Shown piece by piece: positions 14,458 through 21,544 of a stretch of DNA of 34,019 nt. The notes beneath the pieces are model-generated. The model saw only the letters and a list, made by a program, of their open reading frames with translations, was not told the origin of the DNA and searched no databases. Positions within the stretch are counted from its first letter, which is position 1, and every line of letters begins with the position of its first letter. The stretch covers positions 1-34,019 of the forward strand of contig JAICUC010000006.1 in NCBI GenBank assembly GCA_025936075.1. The letters run 5' to 3'. A program made the position numbers and the translations under genes. The DNA is from Nitrospira sp. (GTDB taxonomy: Bacteria > Nitrospirota > Nitrospiria > Nitrospirales > Nitrospiraceae).

Positions 14458-16137
14458 TTACTGTCGAATCTTGGCCCAGGCTTTTTGGTACTCTTCGAAG
14501 GAATCGACTTCCATCCATCCCTTGAAAATCGGTACGGCTTGGATGCGGTAGCCTTGGTCGATCAGTTCCTGCAGCATGTCGGTGAAAGAAGCCTTGGCCA
14601 GGCTTGCAGACTCATGGAATGGGGAGGACTGATGCTGTTTGTAGGCCTTGTGGTAGTACTCGCGAAGGGCCTGCGTACCTTTCTCGGAGAACATGACCAT
14701 ACCGATGAATTCACCATGCGCCAGTTCACGGGCAAGTTGCTGACCGATCTTAACCACCTGATGCTCACCCTCCGGCATCACAAATCGGGACAAATAGCTT
14801 TTGCCGGGAGGAGCGGCCAGTGAGACGAGATCCGGATTAAGATGGGGCGGCTGGGCATTCAGTTGTTCCTGATCAAACCAGGCTAAGTCGACAACCAGAG
14901 CAATGTCGGCGGGACTTTTGAGCAACTTTTCAAGAATCGCGGTCTCAAAGATGATGTCGCCGTACAAAACGATGGTCCGCCCTCTTAACTCATTTTCGGC
15001 ACAGAAGAGCGAAACAAGCTCGCCGGTTTCCTCATAACGATCGTTGTCGTAGTAGCGAATATTGGGAAGCGTGATCGCTTCTTTTTTATACCCACGGACC
15101 AACGCAATTTCTTTGATGTCACATTCGTTGAGTGCGCTGATCTGGCGATCGAGAATCGTTTTCCCTTTAATGTCGAGCAGACACTTCGGCTTATCCTCAA
15201 TCAATGGCAAAAGCTGTTTTTCGAATCCGGCGGCGGCAATAATCGCGGTGATTCGTTCGCTACCCACCGGAAGGAACTGTTTCTCGTCTTGCTCCATTTG
15301 CGGGACACCGACAATGTCATAGACTTCGGGTAACGTGACGATTCGGTCGTTTGCCGCTCCCGGGCGCGTGTCTTTCTTGATGAGGCCCAGCGTGTCCGTC
15401 ATGGCACGAATGGCCGCCCGTACCGGTTGGTTGGCATAGATAATGATCTTTGCTCCGGCTTCTTCCATTTCCGTCGCGGTCGTCTGGTCGAAAATCGTGG
15501 GAACCACCACCAATGGGACGCGCCCGGACCACAATTTATACACACCCTTCAACTCGTCAAACTTTTTCGATTTCGAATGGATCAGAATGGCGTCGGCGCC
15601 AGCGTCCGCATAGGCTTCAGCCCGTTTCAACGCTTCTTCCTGACCCCACCCGGCGATGAGGGCCTCGGTTCTCGCAATGATCATGAATTCTGGAGAAACC
15701 TGAGCGGCTTTCGCCGCTCGAATCTTCCCGCAGTGCTCTTCAATGGGAATCAATTCTCGACGAACGCCCGCATAGAAACTGCAGCGTTTTGGGTAGACGT
15801 TATCTTCGATGCAAATAGCCGCCACGCCGGCCCGCTCGCGGTCGGTGACGGTCCGCATGACATTCAGCGCGTTGCCATATCCGGTGTCGCAATCAGCGAT
15901 CACTGGAATGTTCACAGCCTCAACGATATTTCGTTCAACGCCGAGTTGTTCGCTAGAGGTGATAAAACTGGCGTCGGGGATACATTTCAGAGAGGCTGAA
16001 ATGGCGAAGCCGCTCGCCCAGATACCGTCGAAACCGGCGCGTTCGATGAGACAGGCGCTGAGCGCATCGTGAGCGCCGACTATCTTCAAGGCACCGGGCC
16101 TTTTCAATGCAGCTCGGAGTTTTGCGGCGTTCGTCAT
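14458..16137 (-). CDS. PEP mutase-like / nucleotidyltransferase fusion protein
   Basis: A 559-residue two-domain protein. Residues 1-290 form an isocitrate-lyase-superfamily barrel closest to PEP mutase, with ADCDTGYGN at 81-89 (metal site) and ARTEALIAGWGQEEALKRAEAY. The mutase converts PEP to phosphonopyruvate, the entry to C-P compounds. The gating loop reads E111-D-N-V-Y-P-K-R-C-S120, whereas proven mutases have EDK-x5-NS; the Lys at the PK position is kept, but the catalytic Asn is Cys, as in isocitrate and methylisocitrate lyases. Residues 295-559 are a nucleotidyltransferase domain (AAAG at 301-304, DKPKCLLDI, YGDIIF) with a changed glycine-rich loop. Divergent phosphonate genes support the mutase reading. 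Confidence 0.8.
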   Translation of the reverse strand: MTNAAKLRAALKRPGALKIVGAHDALSACLIERAGFDGIWASGFAISASLKCIPDASFITSSEQLGVERNIVEAVNIPVIADCDTGYGNALNVMRTVTDRERAGVAAICIEDNVYPKRCSFYAGVRRELIPIEEHCGKIRAAKAAQVSPEFMIIARTEALIAGWGQEEALKRAEAYADAGADAILIHSKSKKFDELKGVYKLWSGRVPLVVVPTIFDQTTATEMEEAGAKIIIYANQPVRAAIRAMTDTLGLIKKDTRPGAANDRIVTLPEVYDIVGVPQMEQDEKQFLPVGSERITAIIAAAGFEKQLLPLIEDKPKCLLDIKGKTILDRQISALNECDIKEIALVRGYKKEAITLPNIRYYDNDRYEETGELVSLFCAENELRGRTIVLYGDIIFETAILEKLLKSPADIALVVDLAWFDQEQLNAQPPHLNPDLVSLAAPPGKSYLSRFVMPEGEHQVVKIGQQLARELAHGEFIGMVMFSEKGTQALREYYHKAYKQHQSSPFHESASLAKASFTDMLQELIDQGYRIQAVPIFKGWMEVDSFEEYQKAWAKIRQ

Positions 16138-16390: not shown

Positions 16391-16918
16391 TTATGGGGAA
16401 CCGGTAATGTCGTCATTGAATCGGGGGGCCAGCGTGCGACTATCGATGAAGATATAGCCACGCTCCGTACCGGCCTGATATGTCAAATTGATTTCAGTTT
16501 CGGACCCACGCCAATTGTATTGCTGGCTGAGTCCTCGTGCCATTTGGCCGGGAATGTGTTCCAGCCGACCGAAGCGGCCTTCCAAGAATCCCAGCACCTG
16601 GCGATGCACGTGGTCTCCTTGATACCGAATGATGACACGCGCGAATTGGTCGTCCACCGAGACATAGAGAACACTAGTCATCTGGGTTCCCGCAAATGAT
16701 GATGGCTCTGTCTTGCGGAGATATTCGGCAATATGCGGATCTGTCTGTATGAGTTCCATGTCCTGTCGAGAAGATAAGGGGGTTCCCCAAGAAATATCGT
16801 GAAATCCTCCTGGGTCATTCGTCATGGGCACAGCCCATACTGAGTCGGCGCTGCTCATGATTGCGAACATCAGGACCAATGGCCAGAGATGGGATGCCGA
16901 TCGGATGGAATTTTTCAT
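16391..16918 (-). CDS. Exported hypothetical protein within the phosphonate region
   Basis: A 175-residue protein read from ATG 16918 (MKNSIRSASHLWPLVLMF...). A basic start, a hydrophobic core and a likely cleavage site after SVWA indicate a Sec signal peptide, so the protein should be periplasmic. The mature part begins GGFHDISWGTPLSS, a phrase type I know from small periplasmic proteins of unknown role in Nitrospira and delta-proteobacteria. A longer frame up to 16966 exists but would hide the signal peptide. It lies between the mutase gene and the decarboxylase operon. A link to the phosphonate product is only a matter of position. Confidence 0.65.
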   Translation of the reverse strand: MKNSIRSASHLWPLVLMFAIMSSADSVWAVPMTNDPGGFHDISWGTPLSSRQDMELIQTDPHIAEYLRKTEPSSFAGTQMTSVLYVSVDDQFARVIIRYQGDHVHRQVLGFLEGRFGRLEHIPGQMARGLSQQYNWRGSETEINLTYQAGTERGYIFIDSRTLAPRFNDDITGSP

Positions 16919-16998
16919 CTCTGTATGCGGAATAAGGCGACAGCCGTATTGGATCCACGCTAACATGCGAGGGGAGTCAACTCAACCGCGGATCTTTC

Positions 16999-17075: not shown

Positions 17076-17573
17076 ATGATTGAAAGCGACGTGTTCGTGC
17101 AAGCCATGCAGGATATGGGGGTCAATTTCTTCACCGGCGTGCCGGATTCGATCCTGGGCGGTATCATTGCAGAACTCATGAACCGTCGACTCTACACCCC
17201 TGCGGTTCGAGAGGATGAAGCGGTGGGCATGGCTGCGGGCGCGTATATGGCGGGAAAAACACCCGCCGTATTAATGCAGAATTCGGGACTCGGCACCTCA
17301 CTCAATACGCTTATTTCTCTGAATGTGATTTATAAGCAACCTTGCATATTGATTGTTTCATGGCGGGGGCAAGGAGGAAAAGATGCTCCCGAACATTTGG
17401 TGATGGGAGAAGTGATGCCGCAATTGCTCGATACCGTCAAAATTCCGCATCGTACCTTGACTGAAAAAACAGCCATTGAAGATTTTAGATGGGTGGCTCA
17501 GACATTCATGCAGCAACAGATTCCGGTCGCGTTGCTCATCACCAAGGGCGTGGTGAAAGGGTTGCATCCGTGA
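17076..17573 (+). CDS. Phosphonopyruvate decarboxylase, alpha (PYR-domain) subunit
   Basis: A 165-residue protein equal to the N-terminal half of thiamine-diphosphate decarboxylases. It carries FFTGVPDSIL at 19-27, the catalytic Glu (E48 in VREDEAVGMAAGA), MQNSGLGTSLN and SWRGQGGKDAPEHLVMG, all typical of phosphonopyruvate and sulfopyruvate decarboxylases. With the beta subunit it would turn phosphonopyruvate into phosphonoacetaldehyde, the step that pulls the mutase reaction forward. Most phosphonopyruvate decarboxylases are a single chain; the split form is like ComD/ComE of coenzyme M synthesis. The neighbouring AEP genes favour the phosphonate substrate. Its stop overlaps the next start (GTGA). 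Confidence 0.85.
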   Translation: MIESDVFVQAMQDMGVNFFTGVPDSILGGIIAELMNRRLYTPAVREDEAVGMAAGAYMAGKTPAVLMQNSGLGTSLNTLISLNVIYKQPCILIVSWRGQGGKDAPEHLVMGEVMPQLLDTVKIPHRTLTEKTAIEDFRWVAQTFMQQQIPVALLITKGVVKGLHP

Positions 17574-18148
17574 GACCCGAACAAGGCACATTGATCAGCC
17601 GAGCGCAGGCCATGGCGGCTTTGTTGGAGTTGCTGACCGATCAACCCGTCATTATCTGCAACGGGTTCCCCTCGCGCGAGGCTCACAAGATCGCGGATCG
17701 GTCCACCCATTTCTACATGATCGGCTCTATGGGGAATGCCCCGGCAATCGCGCTCGGTGTCGCCCTCGCAAAACCCAATAAACAGGTGATCACCTTCGAT
17801 GGCGATGGAAATGTGTTAATGGGAATGGGTACTGTCGCGACGGTCGGTGCGTTAAAACCGAAAAACTTTATCCACGTCGTTTTCGACAACGAAGTGTACG
17901 GGACGACCGGAAACCAGCCCACGATCTCCAACGTGGTGCCGCTGGAGAAAGTGGCGAAGTCGGCGGGCTACGTGAATGTGGAACGGGTCCTTGATCGCGA
18001 CGATCTCGTCTACGAGTTCAAAGATATGCTGAAGAAGGATGGACCCAGCATGTTGCTCATCAAGGTGAACGAATTTGTGGAAGATGCAGGCCGTGTCTTA
18101 CACGATCCGCCGGATATCACCCGCCGATTCATGAAGGCAATTGACTGA
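17570..18148 (+). CDS. Phosphonopyruvate decarboxylase, beta (PP-domain) subunit
   Basis: A 192-residue protein equal to the C-terminal half of the same enzyme family. It holds the thiamine-diphosphate/magnesium motif GDGN at 78-81 with the matching Asn N107 (FDNEVYGTTGNQPT) and the phrase FYMIGSMGNAPAIALGVALAKP. The start GTG 17570 overlaps the alpha stop by four bases, so translation of the two subunits is coupled and a 1:1 complex is likely. A longer frame from 17489 lies inside the alpha gene and is not the start. Sulfopyruvate decarboxylase is the alternative assignment, weakened by the absence of other coenzyme M genes. Confidence 0.85.
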   Translation: MRPEQGTLISRAQAMAALLELLTDQPVIICNGFPSREAHKIADRSTHFYMIGSMGNAPAIALGVALAKPNKQVITFDGDGNVLMGMGTVATVGALKPKNFIHVVFDNEVYGTTGNQPTISNVVPLEKVAKSAGYVNVERVLDRDDLVYEFKDMLKKDGPSMLLIKVNEFVEDAGRVLHDPPDITRRFMKAID

Positions 18149-18250: not shown

Positions 18251-19333
18251 GTGGTTCTCCTGAACCCAGGACCAGTCAACGTTTCCGAACGGGTGCGGCA
18301 GGCGCTGCTGAAACCCGATATCTGTCATCGAGAAGATGAATTTTACGAGCTGCTCCACCGTATCCAAGTCAAACTGCTCAAGGCCTTTGTCCCTGGGGCA
18401 GAATCGGAATACGTCGCCGTCGTGATGACCGGGTCAGGGACGGCTGTCGTCGAAGCTGCCTTGATGTCGTCGCTTCCTCACGGCCGCCGTATGCTCATCC
18501 TCAACAACGGCGTCTACGGTGAACGGATGTCTCACATCGTGGGGCTCCATCGCCTGGGGGTGAACGAGTTGAAATATGAATGGACGGTTCGGCCTGATCC
18601 GGAAAGATTGCTTCTTGCCTTGCGACAGCATCAGGAGGTGCATGCCGTCGGTATGGTACATCACGAGACCACCACCGGACTCCTCAATCCGGTCCACGAG
18701 ATCGCTGAGATCGTCGATAATCAGAATAGGGTGTTTGTGCTCGATGCCGTCAGCGCTCTGGCGGGCGAGACGATCGACATTGCGCGGTCACACATTTATA
18801 TGGTGATGGGGACGGCAGGAAAGTGTATTCAAGGGTTCCCAGGCGTCTCATTCGTTCTGGTGCGGAAGGGGTTCGTCGAAAAAATGCGTTCGTACCCGAA
18901 GCGCTCGTGGTATCTCCATCTGACCCATTACATCGACAACGAGGGGCGAGGCACGATCCCCTTCACGCCCGCCGTCCAGATCTACTATGCCTTCGACGAA
19001 GCACTCAACGAGCTACTCGAAGAAGGCGTGGCCAATCGCATCCAACGGTACAAGAAGATGGCGGCCTTCATCCGTGAGCGAATGGCCAAACTCGGGGTGA
19101 AGGCGCTCCTCCCGGCGGAGCGGCAATCGAATACCATCACGGCCTATCATCTGCCGGATGGTGTGTCCTATCACACGTTACATGACCGTCTGAGACAGCA
19201 GGGCTATGTCATTTATGCCGGTCAAGGCAACTTGGAAAACAAGATTTTCCGCGTGGCCAATATGGGGGCCTTGTCCGAGACGGAATTCGGCGGGTTTCTC
19301 GACGCCTTTGAGCACCTGTGCAAGTCGGCATGA
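18251..19333 (+). CDS. 2-Aminoethylphosphonate transaminase-like PLP enzyme
   Basis: A 360-residue fold-type I aminotransferase of the PhnW/AEP-transaminase type. Landmarks are LLNPGPVNVS at 3-12, GSGT at 61-64, HHETTTG at 137-143, the PLP-pairing Asp D165 in LDAVSA and the Schiff-base Lys K191 in MGTAGKCIQGFPG. It would convert phosphonoacetaldehyde to AEP with an amino donor, the reverse of the degradative PhnW direction. GTG 18251 follows GGAGAGAAGA directly. It sits 102 bases after the decarboxylase and overlaps the cytidylyltransferase by ATGA; in other bacteria these two activities are fused. No phosphonate-degrading hydrolase is nearby, which favours synthesis. Confidence 0.85.
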   Translation: MVLLNPGPVNVSERVRQALLKPDICHREDEFYELLHRIQVKLLKAFVPGAESEYVAVVMTGSGTAVVEAALMSSLPHGRRMLILNNGVYGERMSHIVGLHRLGVNELKYEWTVRPDPERLLLALRQHQEVHAVGMVHHETTTGLLNPVHEIAEIVDNQNRVFVLDAVSALAGETIDIARSHIYMVMGTAGKCIQGFPGVSFVLVRKGFVEKMRSYPKRSWYLHLTHYIDNEGRGTIPFTPAVQIYYAFDEALNELLEEGVANRIQRYKKMAAFIRERMAKLGVKALLPAERQSNTITAYHLPDGVSYHTLHDRLRQQGYVIYAGQGNLENKIFRVANMGALSETEFGGFLDAFEHLCKSA

Positions 19334-20049
19334 AGGCGGTTATTCTTGCAGCGGGAGTGGGAAAACGTCTGTGGGAAGTGACCCAGCATCATCCGAAATG
19401 CCTCATCGAGATCGGCGGACGGTCGCTCTTGCGTCGTTCCTTGGAGTCGCTGGTTTCTGTCGGGATTCGCCGGGCCGAGATCGTCGTCGGGTACAAGCAG
19501 GAACTGATTCGTACGGCGGTCGCCCAGGATGCATGCGGCGTCAACGTCACGTTTCTGGTCAACGAGCAGTTTCACAGAGGCAGTATTTCCTCGCTTTGGA
19601 TCGCACGAACCGCGTTCGATGATGATACCATCGTGATGGATGCCGATGTGCTGTTCCATCCGGAAATCCTACGGCGTCTGGTGTCGTCACCCTCTGAGAA
19701 TGCGCTATTGATGGATGAGACGGTGAAGCAGACCGGAGAAGAATGCATGGTGGTTGTCGCGGGAAGCCGAGTTGTCGCACTGACAAAGAACATGCCGGAA
19801 CAGTACGACTTCGCCGGTGAAGGGGTTGGATTCCTTCGCGTTCGGCATGCCGACACGCCTCATGTCGTGTCATCGCTGCGCGGCTACATCGACAGAGGTT
19901 CATGGGATATGGAGTATGAGGACGCGCTGCTGCAGTATTTTCAGGATGTGCGGGTCGGGTATGAGCGAATCGGCGGTCTGCCCTGGACCGAGATCGATTT
20001 CATCGAAGACATAAGAAAAGCCGAGTTGGAAGTTTCGCCAAGGTTATGA
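19330..20049 (+). CDS. Cytidylyltransferase for AEP (PntC/LicC-like)
   Basis: A 239-residue nucleotidyltransferase with an intact signature LAAGVGKRL at 6-14, PKCLIEI (Lys23), NEQFHRGSISSLW at 79-91 and the metal-binding MDAD at 103-106. This is the pattern of phosphocholine and AEP cytidylyltransferases. By context it would make CMP-AEP from CTP and AEP, activating the head group for transfer. ATG 19330 overlaps the transaminase stop (ATGA); a GTG 12 bases earlier is less likely. Other small phosphoamines could be the true substrate, but the neighbouring genes point to AEP. Confidence 0.82.
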   Translation: MKAVILAAGVGKRLWEVTQHHPKCLIEIGGRSLLRRSLESLVSVGIRRAEIVVGYKQELIRTAVAQDACGVNVTFLVNEQFHRGSISSLWIARTAFDDDTIVMDADVLFHPEILRRLVSSPSENALLMDETVKQTGEECMVVVAGSRVVALTKNMPEQYDFAGEGVGFLRVRHADTPHVVSSLRGYIDRGSWDMEYEDALLQYFQDVRVGYERIGGLPWTEIDFIEDIRKAELEVSPRL

Positions 20050-20107: not shown

Positions 20108-21544
20108 ATGAGTAAGAGCACCCTTCAACGAAGAGCCGAAATCCAAGGATTGGCGACGGCGATTTTGCTGCCGTCTGTCGGGATATTCGGCGGTCCGATC
20201 GGGTCGCAGGCCGACGACGTGGGACCTCTGACGAGCGTCGTGGGGATCGGACTCTTCCAACGGGCCGTGCTCACCTTGCAACGGGCGGGGATTCGTCAAT
20301 TAATCGTCCTTTCCGGTTCCGAGGAGGAGCAGTTGAAACAGGCGCTAGGCAAAGGGCCGCGCGTCACGATTCCCGTCCGATGGATGCCAATCCGTGAGTT
20401 TCCTCTCGATGATCCTCGGACATGGGAAGCCTTGGCGGCGGAAGTGCATGGCTTTGCGCTGGTCGCGGGCATCAATGGCGTGTTCTCTCGAGGACTAATC
20501 GAACGGTTACGGCGTAATGTACAGGACGGTCAGGCCATCGTGGTCTCTCAAGCTCCACAGAGGCAGGTCGATCAGTTCACGGTGCTGGGTGTGCGATCGA
20601 AAGTTCCGTCCGGTCGCCCGGCGCTTTTTGCCCCTCCTCGTTTCGACGATCCGGCTCTGCGTGTCGCTGAGCTGGTGGTCGTGCCGGCAAGCCTGATGAG
20701 CACCGCCAATCAAGCGGCGAGTGAAAAGGGAAGCCCTCCGATCCGACAGTGGCTTGAGCGGGCTGAGGCGGATGGTCGAGTGCGCCTCGTCTCGGCTGAA
20801 GAGAGGCGGGGGGCTTGGTATCAACCCGTCCGAAACGTGTCCGACGTCCAAACAGCCGAAAAGAAATTGTTCAATTCGCTCAAGGGAGAATTTGAAGGGT
20901 TCATCGATCGCTATTTCAATCGCAAGGTCTCCCGCTGGTTCACGCGCCTCTTTCTCGCCATGGGGCTGTCGCCCAATTCCATCACTGTCCTTGCCGGATT
21001 TATCGGTTTGGTTGCTGCGGCAGGGTTTGGGATGGGCACGTACAGCGCGGGTATCATGGCAGCCCTCTTGTTTCAATTGGCGGCCGTCATTGATTGCTGC
21101 GACGGCGAAGTCGCGCGATTGACCTTTACCGAGTCCCCTTTTGGTGCCTGGCTTGATATTGTTTTGGACAACATTGTGCATATGGCGATTTTTGCCGGCA
21201 TCGCCGTGGGGCTCTACACGACTCACATGGGACAAGCGACCGCTTGGGTACCTCTCGCGTTAGGTGCCGCTGCTGTGTTCGGCAACGGCCTTTCATTCTT
21301 ACTTGTCGAAAAGGCTCAAAAGATTAAAACGGTGAGTGGCTGGAGAACCCCTACCCATGCGGCCTGGGCGGACGTCATGTTGAAAAATGTCGCCAGCCGT
21401 GATTTCTCAGCAGCCTTACTGGGGTTTGCGCTGTTCGATCAACTCTATTGGTTTCTACTCTTTGCGGCAGCCGGTTCCTTGCTGTTTGCCGGTGCCATGA
21501 TTTGGGTCATCCGCCCATCTGCAGTGTCATCTCCTCTGCCATAA
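20108..21544 (+). CDS. CDP-alcohol phosphatidyltransferase with degenerate nucleotidyltransferase domain
   Basis: A 478-residue membrane enzyme. The C-terminal half (about 265-475) holds the full CDP-alcohol phosphatidyltransferase signature: D329-C-C-D332-G-E-V-A-R337, eight residues, G346-A-W-L-D350-I-V-L-D354. About six helices surround it. The N-terminal 1-240 looks like a nucleotidyltransferase fold (LIVLSG, VAGINGVFS), but the glycine-rich loop is replaced by LPSVGIFGGP and the PK motif is missing, so it is probably inactive. The layout resembles the fused cytidylyltransferase/di-myo-inositol-phosphate synthases. Here it would transfer phosphonoethylamine from CMP-AEP to an alcohol such as diacylglycerol. 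The acceptor is inferred. Confidence 0.83.
   Translation: MSKSTLQRRAEIQGLATAILLPSVGIFGGPIGSQADDVGPLTSVVGIGLFQRAVLTLQRAGIRQLIVLSGSEEEQLKQALGKGPRVTIPVRWMPIREFPLDDPRTWEALAAEVHGFALVAGINGVFSRGLIERLRRNVQDGQAIVVSQAPQRQVDQFTVLGVRSKVPSGRPALFAPPRFDDPALRVAELVVVPASLMSTANQAASEKGSPPIRQWLERAEADGRVRLVSAEERRGAWYQPVRNVSDVQTAEKKLFNSLKGEFEGFIDRYFNRKVSRWFTRLFLAMGLSPNSITVLAGFIGLVAAAGFGMGTYSAGIMAALLFQLAAVIDCCDGEVARLTFTESPFGAWLDIVLDNIVHMAIFAGIAVGLYTTHMGQATAWVPLALGAAAVFGNGLSFLLVEKAQKIKTVSGWRTPTHAAWADVMLKNVASRDFSAALLGFALFDQLYWFLLFAAAGSLLFAGAMIWVIRPSAVSSPLP

Follow-up and report, generated by a model that had tools for sequence, protein, structure and literature searches.

The window, a 34,019-nucleotide stretch of a Nitrospira sp. 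contig, encodes a protein with the barrel of a PEP mutase and a loop in which the usual recognition residues are replaced. Which reaction does this barrel catalyse? The first-pass annotation had left two options side by side: either a variant mutase whose active loop differs, or an enzyme yielding another intermediate, so that the whole pathway differs from the textbook one. By motif, model cut-off and clade, the window protein is not a standard PEP mutase member. Our best reading of the comparative evidence is that it nevertheless works as a PEP mutase (probability about 0.87), and that it belongs to a group whose active loop is of another, perhaps ancestral, kind and which would feed an ordinary 2-aminoethylphosphonate (AEP) pathway, probably towards a phosphonolipid.

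The fused protein and its active loop

The 559-residue product of the mutase gene (Table 1) matches Pfam PEP_mutase with 193 bits and NTP_transf_3 with 37.6 bits. At the position of EDKx5NS in proven PEP mutases its loop reads EDNVYPKRCSFY, and residues 111-125 are EDNVYPKRCSFYAGV. Translation and alignment to solved enzymes bear out the original observation that EDNVYPKRCS, at residues 111-120, stands in place of EDKx5NS. The alignment is gap-free across the loop and equates N113, K117, R118, C119 and S120 with K116, K120, T121, N122 and S123 of the Mytilus enzyme, of which N122 is regarded as catalytic. The corresponding loops of solved enzymes are EDKLFPKTNSL (Mytilus PEP mutase), EDKRFPKVNSF (S. 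platensis PEP mutase), EDKTFPKDTSL (Variovorax phosphonopyruvate hydrolase) and EDQQLPKKCGH (B. anthracis lyase). On the NCBI PEP mutase model TIGR02320, whose cut-off is 319.55, the protein reaches 268.6 bits and thus falls short.

Outside the loop, the barrel resembles the mutases closely. The closest solved-structure sequences are those of the S. platensis PEP mutase, the Variovorax hydrolase and the Mytilus PEP mutase. An AlphaFold2 model of residues 1-290 (pLDDT 93) retrieves the PEP mutases 5unc and 1pym first from the PDB, then the hydrolase and then lyases, and its predicted fold would be shared with PEP mutase (PepM/Ppm; Mytilus edulis 1PYM/1M1B, S. platensis 5UNC) at a TM of about 0.92. 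All of the metal and substrate residues W44, S46, D58, D85, D87, E114, K120, S123, R159 and H190 (Mytilus numbering) are kept; in window numbering the unchanged site comprises W40, D55, D82, D84, E111, K117, S120, R156 and H187. The same PEP mutases also have in common with it the cytidylyltransferase fusion and a neighbourhood with Ppd and AEPT. They differ from it in EDK to EDN, NS to CS, and F44, R118, Y122, R127, H135 and T157, at 38-52% identity.

The K-R-C of the loop had been taken for the catalytic pattern of isocitrate and methylisocitrate lyases. These three residues do match, but Ser-Phe follows them, as in mutases, instead of Gly-His (KRCSF fails the lyase loop test K[KR]CGH); the protein lacks the lyase active-site Glu and retains the His, Trp and Ser of mutases. 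If the protein acted on a C-C bond, as a lyase or another enzyme of the methylisocitrate lyase type, C119 would be its general acid-base and the pathway would start from another intermediate. The Cys of 2-methylisocitrate lyase PrpB that corresponds to C119 is an acid-base catalyst. PrpB (1MUM) and its relatives share with the window protein the K-R-C loop, a Thr after the catalytic Arg (ART; Thr157) and an amide after ED (position 113). However, they carry Gly-His after the Cys, Glu rather than His at 187, Tyr or Phe rather than Trp at 40, and Asp rather than Glu at 158, and at these same places the alignment sets lyases apart from both forms of mutase. Furthermore, the prpB model TIGR02317 gives 199 against a cut-off of 354. 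We consider a lyase very unlikely.

Distribution, conservation and phylogeny of the Cys form

A scan of named prokaryote genomes together with a sample of 296 Nitrospirota genomes recovered proteins with the same loop, hereafter the Cys form, from Nitrospira (N. moscoviensis among them), other Nitrospirota, one Nitrospinota, one Chlamydiae, and several Planctomycetota and Acidobacteria bins. In the first alignment N and C occupied the two loop positions in 34/34 distinct Cys-form members, compared to K and N in 36/36 canonical sequences. The loop change is therefore neither a sequencing slip nor chance. Cys119 and Ser120 are invariant across the group, while position 113 is Asn, occasionally Ser in a later sample. 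Twelve positions separate the two sets (F44, T96, N113, R118, C119, Y122, V125, R127, H135, T157, Y273 and V276), and the metal and substrate residues are identical between them. His187 is found in all 34 Cys-form members and Glu, the lyase state, in none.

In a sample of 294 planctomycete genomes, the PEP mutase model matched at E <= 1e-50 in 33, once per genome; 21 of these matches were Cys forms and 12 carried EDKx5NS. None of the planctomycete Cys forms passed the TIGR02320 cut-off. It should also be noted that three ORFs of 317-407 aa encode more distant relatives with ED[N/S]xxPKRCS, which lie on long branches where placed and whose function may differ. Five planctomycete proteins (four of about 440 aa and one of 297 aa) read EDKxGLKxNS, have no Pro before the loop Lys and form a long branch of their own. 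Two hydrolase-like EDKx5TS proteins carry ARTEA instead of ARVEA, which shows that Thr157 also occurs outside the Cys form.

In two trees, built without the loop columns, the Cys form, the EDKx5NS proteins and the hydrolase make up one group (support 100/100), which a long, fully supported branch separates from the lyases. Within this group a fully supported branch (100/100) sets the EDK proteins apart, and the Cys form lies outside, a split seen again with more planctomycetes. The outcome that the first-pass annotation had named as counting against an unusual enzyme was a position within a clade of proven mutases that share EDNx5CS; the Cys group instead falls outside the EDK clade that holds the Mytilus mutase. 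Rooted on lyases, the set with more planctomycetes shows the Cys form as a basal grade, across a long outgroup branch of 1.3 changes per column, and this early branching is also what a lyase might show. In the 34-member set, monophyly of the Cys form was neither established nor rejected (AU p-value 0.487). A clade of both mutase forms without the hydrolase was rejected (p-value 1.6e-4). One possible but rather doubtful history is that the Cys loop belonged to the ancestral C-P bond-forming enzyme: PEP mutase would have arisen from a K-R-C lyase, first with Cys, and EDKx5NS would have been gained later, in which case C119 may act in catalysis by a mechanism other than the textbook one.

Since the EDK clade contains both a proven mutase and a proven hydrolase, function does change in this region of the tree. 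The Cys form could be read as a phosphonopyruvate hydrolase or another phosphonate-consuming enzyme, which we rate as even less probable than a lyase. The hydrolase model TIGR02321 gives 253.7 bits, nearly the TIGR02320 score, against a cut-off of 374.4, and the Variovorax enzyme (2HJP/2DUA) has the mutase-type site too, with R156, H187 and F44 in it, and likewise does without the loop Asn, having Thr there. However, this proven enzyme keeps EDK, is stand-alone and sits inside the EDK clade, away from the Cys group, and the window protein (EDNx5CS) fails the hydrolase loop test EDKx5TS. A hydrolase would also destroy the substrate of the neighbouring decarboxylase.

Pathway partners and exchange for canonical mutases

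The features of the cluster are collected in Table 1.

Table 1. Genes and features around the fused mutase, in positions of the whole window.
Position	Strand	Feature	Evidence
14458..16137	-	Cys-form PEP mutase (residues 1-~290) fused to LicC/PntC-like cytidylyltransferase domain (296-559)	Pfam, NCBIfam, AlphaFold2
15763..15807	-	Active loop EDNVYPKRCSFYAGV replacing EDKx5NS	Translation and alignments
16391..16966	-	Conserved protein of no known family, signal-peptide-like start, between mutase and decarboxylase genes	
17076..17573	+	Phosphonopyruvate decarboxylase, N-terminal half (PpdA)	TIGR03297 132.5 bits, positions 1-156
17489..18148	+	Phosphonopyruvate decarboxylase, C-terminal half (PpdB)	TIGR03297 171.5 bits, positions 166-358
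18251..19333	+	2-aminoethylphosphonate transaminase (AEPT)	TIGR03301 347 bits, cut-off 360.8
19318..20049	+	Stand-alone CTP:AEP cytidylyltransferase-like protein, PntC-like	Best PDB sequence match 6pd1, E 1.5e-16
20108..21544	+	CDP-alcohol phosphatidyltransferase with extra N-terminal region	PF01066 45 bits
21570..22580	+	Flippase-like membrane protein, LPG_synthase_TM / HpnL type	PF03706 114 bits, TIGR03476 169 bits

The PpdB ORF probably starts later than listed, near 17567. The cluster has two cytidylyltransferases, one fused (14461-15261) and one free. The best match of the free enzyme, 6pd1, is T. denticola PntC, whose MEYE motif (Glu196) is conserved in it; the authors of that structure placed Glu196 near the AEP amine. 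The presumed role of the CDP-alcohol transferase is to transfer the AEP of CMP-AEP onto a lipid or polyol. The small protein between mutase and decarboxylase matched neither a Pfam nor an NCBIfam family; in Nitrospirales its homologues always occupy the same interval, often two in a row.

The Cys form is coupled in the genome to phosphonopyruvate decarboxylase. The split decarboxylase adjoins it in Nitrospira, Chlamydiae and Planctomycetota, including 14 of 15 further Planctomycetota loci, and a decarboxylase match was found in 9/10 genomes reached through other Cys-form loci. The full set of neighbours recurs in other Nitrospira and in one Chlamydiae bin; planctomycetes have most of it. Where the Cys form stands apart from the decarboxylase, as in two examples that we examined, the decarboxylase-transaminase pair is encoded elsewhere in the genome. 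Two Desulfobacca-type loci combine the same genes with an EDKx5NS mutase of the canonical type. However, four near-complete genomes, three of genus g3 and one of g6, keep PpdA-PpdB-AEPT and have no PEP mutase-like gene, so these partners alone are no proof of phosphonopyruvate, and an argument from neighbours alone to the reaction is weakened. Four g3 and g6 loci have PpdA-PpdB-AEPT at the syntenic place, in near-complete genomes from which the PntC, CDP-alcohol and flippase genes are missing as well as any PEP mutase.

Stronger evidence comes from the genomes in which the Cys form is exchanged. We defined the pathway pair as AEPT of at least 384 bits plus PpdB of at least 160 bits, which is present in 100 of the 296 Nitrospirota genomes. 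The Cys form occurs in 25 of these and another fused mutase in 68; no genome has both, compared to 17 expected under independence (kinship ignored). The 68 are covered by 72 loci, some twice, and every one reads EDKx5NS. The remaining seven, with neither form, comprise two incomplete bins, four near-complete genomes that retain only PpdA-PpdB-AEPT, and one with a lyase-type protein only. Both states occur inside each of three genera. Canonical-type genomes have their decarboxylase-transaminase cluster at the same location, without the mutase gene in it. Remains of a Cys-form gene survive at the syntenic place in six such genomes, each from the same genus as the window; the better-aligned pieces are 62-90% identical, and frameshifts, in-frame stops and large internal deletions have broken up the gene. 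In all six the decarboxylase and transaminase are intact, and the split decarboxylase was the only Ppd match found. Mutual exclusion, together with six relics beside intact pathway genes, shows that a true PEP mutase substitutes for the Cys form. The decayed copies are the pattern that would be expected if an incoming canonical mutase had taken over the same job.

This exchange largely settles the pathway question. Within the window's genus and order a canonical mutase occurs with the same split decarboxylase and transaminase and never accompanies the Cys form, and the option of another intermediate and a different pathway is now unlikely, while that of a mutase variant has become well supported. 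Neither a lyase could be replaced by a canonical PEP mutase nor would one stand in for a hydrolase. The same holds for a sulfonate pathway, in which the barrel would act on a PEP-derived sulfonate and sulfopyruvate would lead to a taurine-like product. PpdA and PpdB match the sulfopyruvate decarboxylase subunits with 119 and 179 bits (the latter to the beta subunit, TIGR03846; all PpdB scores lie under the cut-offs), and PpdA-PpdB-AEPT is kept in some mutase-less genomes. However, both cytidylyltransferases, the barrel-fused one and the one that resembles AEP-specific PntC, need a phosphate or phosphonate, and the enzyme that takes the place of the Cys form next to these genes is a canonical PEP mutase; we put this reading on a level with the hydrolase. 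Least probable of all is a catalytically dead barrel with only the fused cytidylyltransferase at work, as the loss of the textbook motif might suggest, given that the whole active site, altered loop included, is strictly conserved across phyla and that Cys-form genomes have no other PEP mutase (a search of the window's genome, 84% complete, found no second, canonical one).

Proposed pathway and implications

We propose that the Cys form is a separate, early-branching subgroup of PEP mutases with the loop ED[N/S]-x-x-PK-x-CS, which would isomerise PEP to phosphonopyruvate. The split decarboxylase and transaminase next door would convert phosphonopyruvate to AEP, the fused and/or stand-alone cytidylyltransferase would make CMP-AEP, and the CDP-alcohol transferase and flippase would probably build and export an AEP lipid. 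As for how the loop works, K117, S120, R156 and H187 may keep the roles that they have in other mutases; C119 and N113 would take the places of N122 and K116 and, with the nearby changes R118, Y122, R127, H135 and T157, form a putative co-adapted set. This proposal draws on genomic evidence, namely the predicted fold, the retained mutase residues, the altered loop, the conserved partners, mutual exclusion and the decayed copies. Against it stand the position outside the proven-mutase clade, the TIGR02320 score below cut-off, the replacement of N122 and the mutase-less PpdA-PpdB-AEPT genomes. A literature search found no activity assay on any Cys-form member and no paper describing the group, most subscription literature being beyond that search.

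Surveys of phosphonate producers have taken EDKx5NS as a requirement (PMC6697681, PMC8931226, PMC12723261). The PepM-PntC fusions and AEP tailoring described in PMC6697681 have in common with the window the mutase-NTP transferase fusion, the CMP-AEP logic and the Ppd and AEPT neighbours, but that survey kept EDKx5NS proteins only and the Cys-form group fails its filter. Motif filters and the NCBI cut-off together leave such PEP mutases out. If this large group makes phosphonopyruvate, as we propose, producers in Nitrospira and Planctomycetota are undercounted. The Cys form seemingly gives a nitrite-oxidising bacterium, many of its relatives and planctomycetes C-P bond synthesis without the usual recognition residues. 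As a natural experiment, it can also inform which residues of the loop are needed for the mutase reaction, and how a C-P bond-forming enzyme evolved from a lyase.
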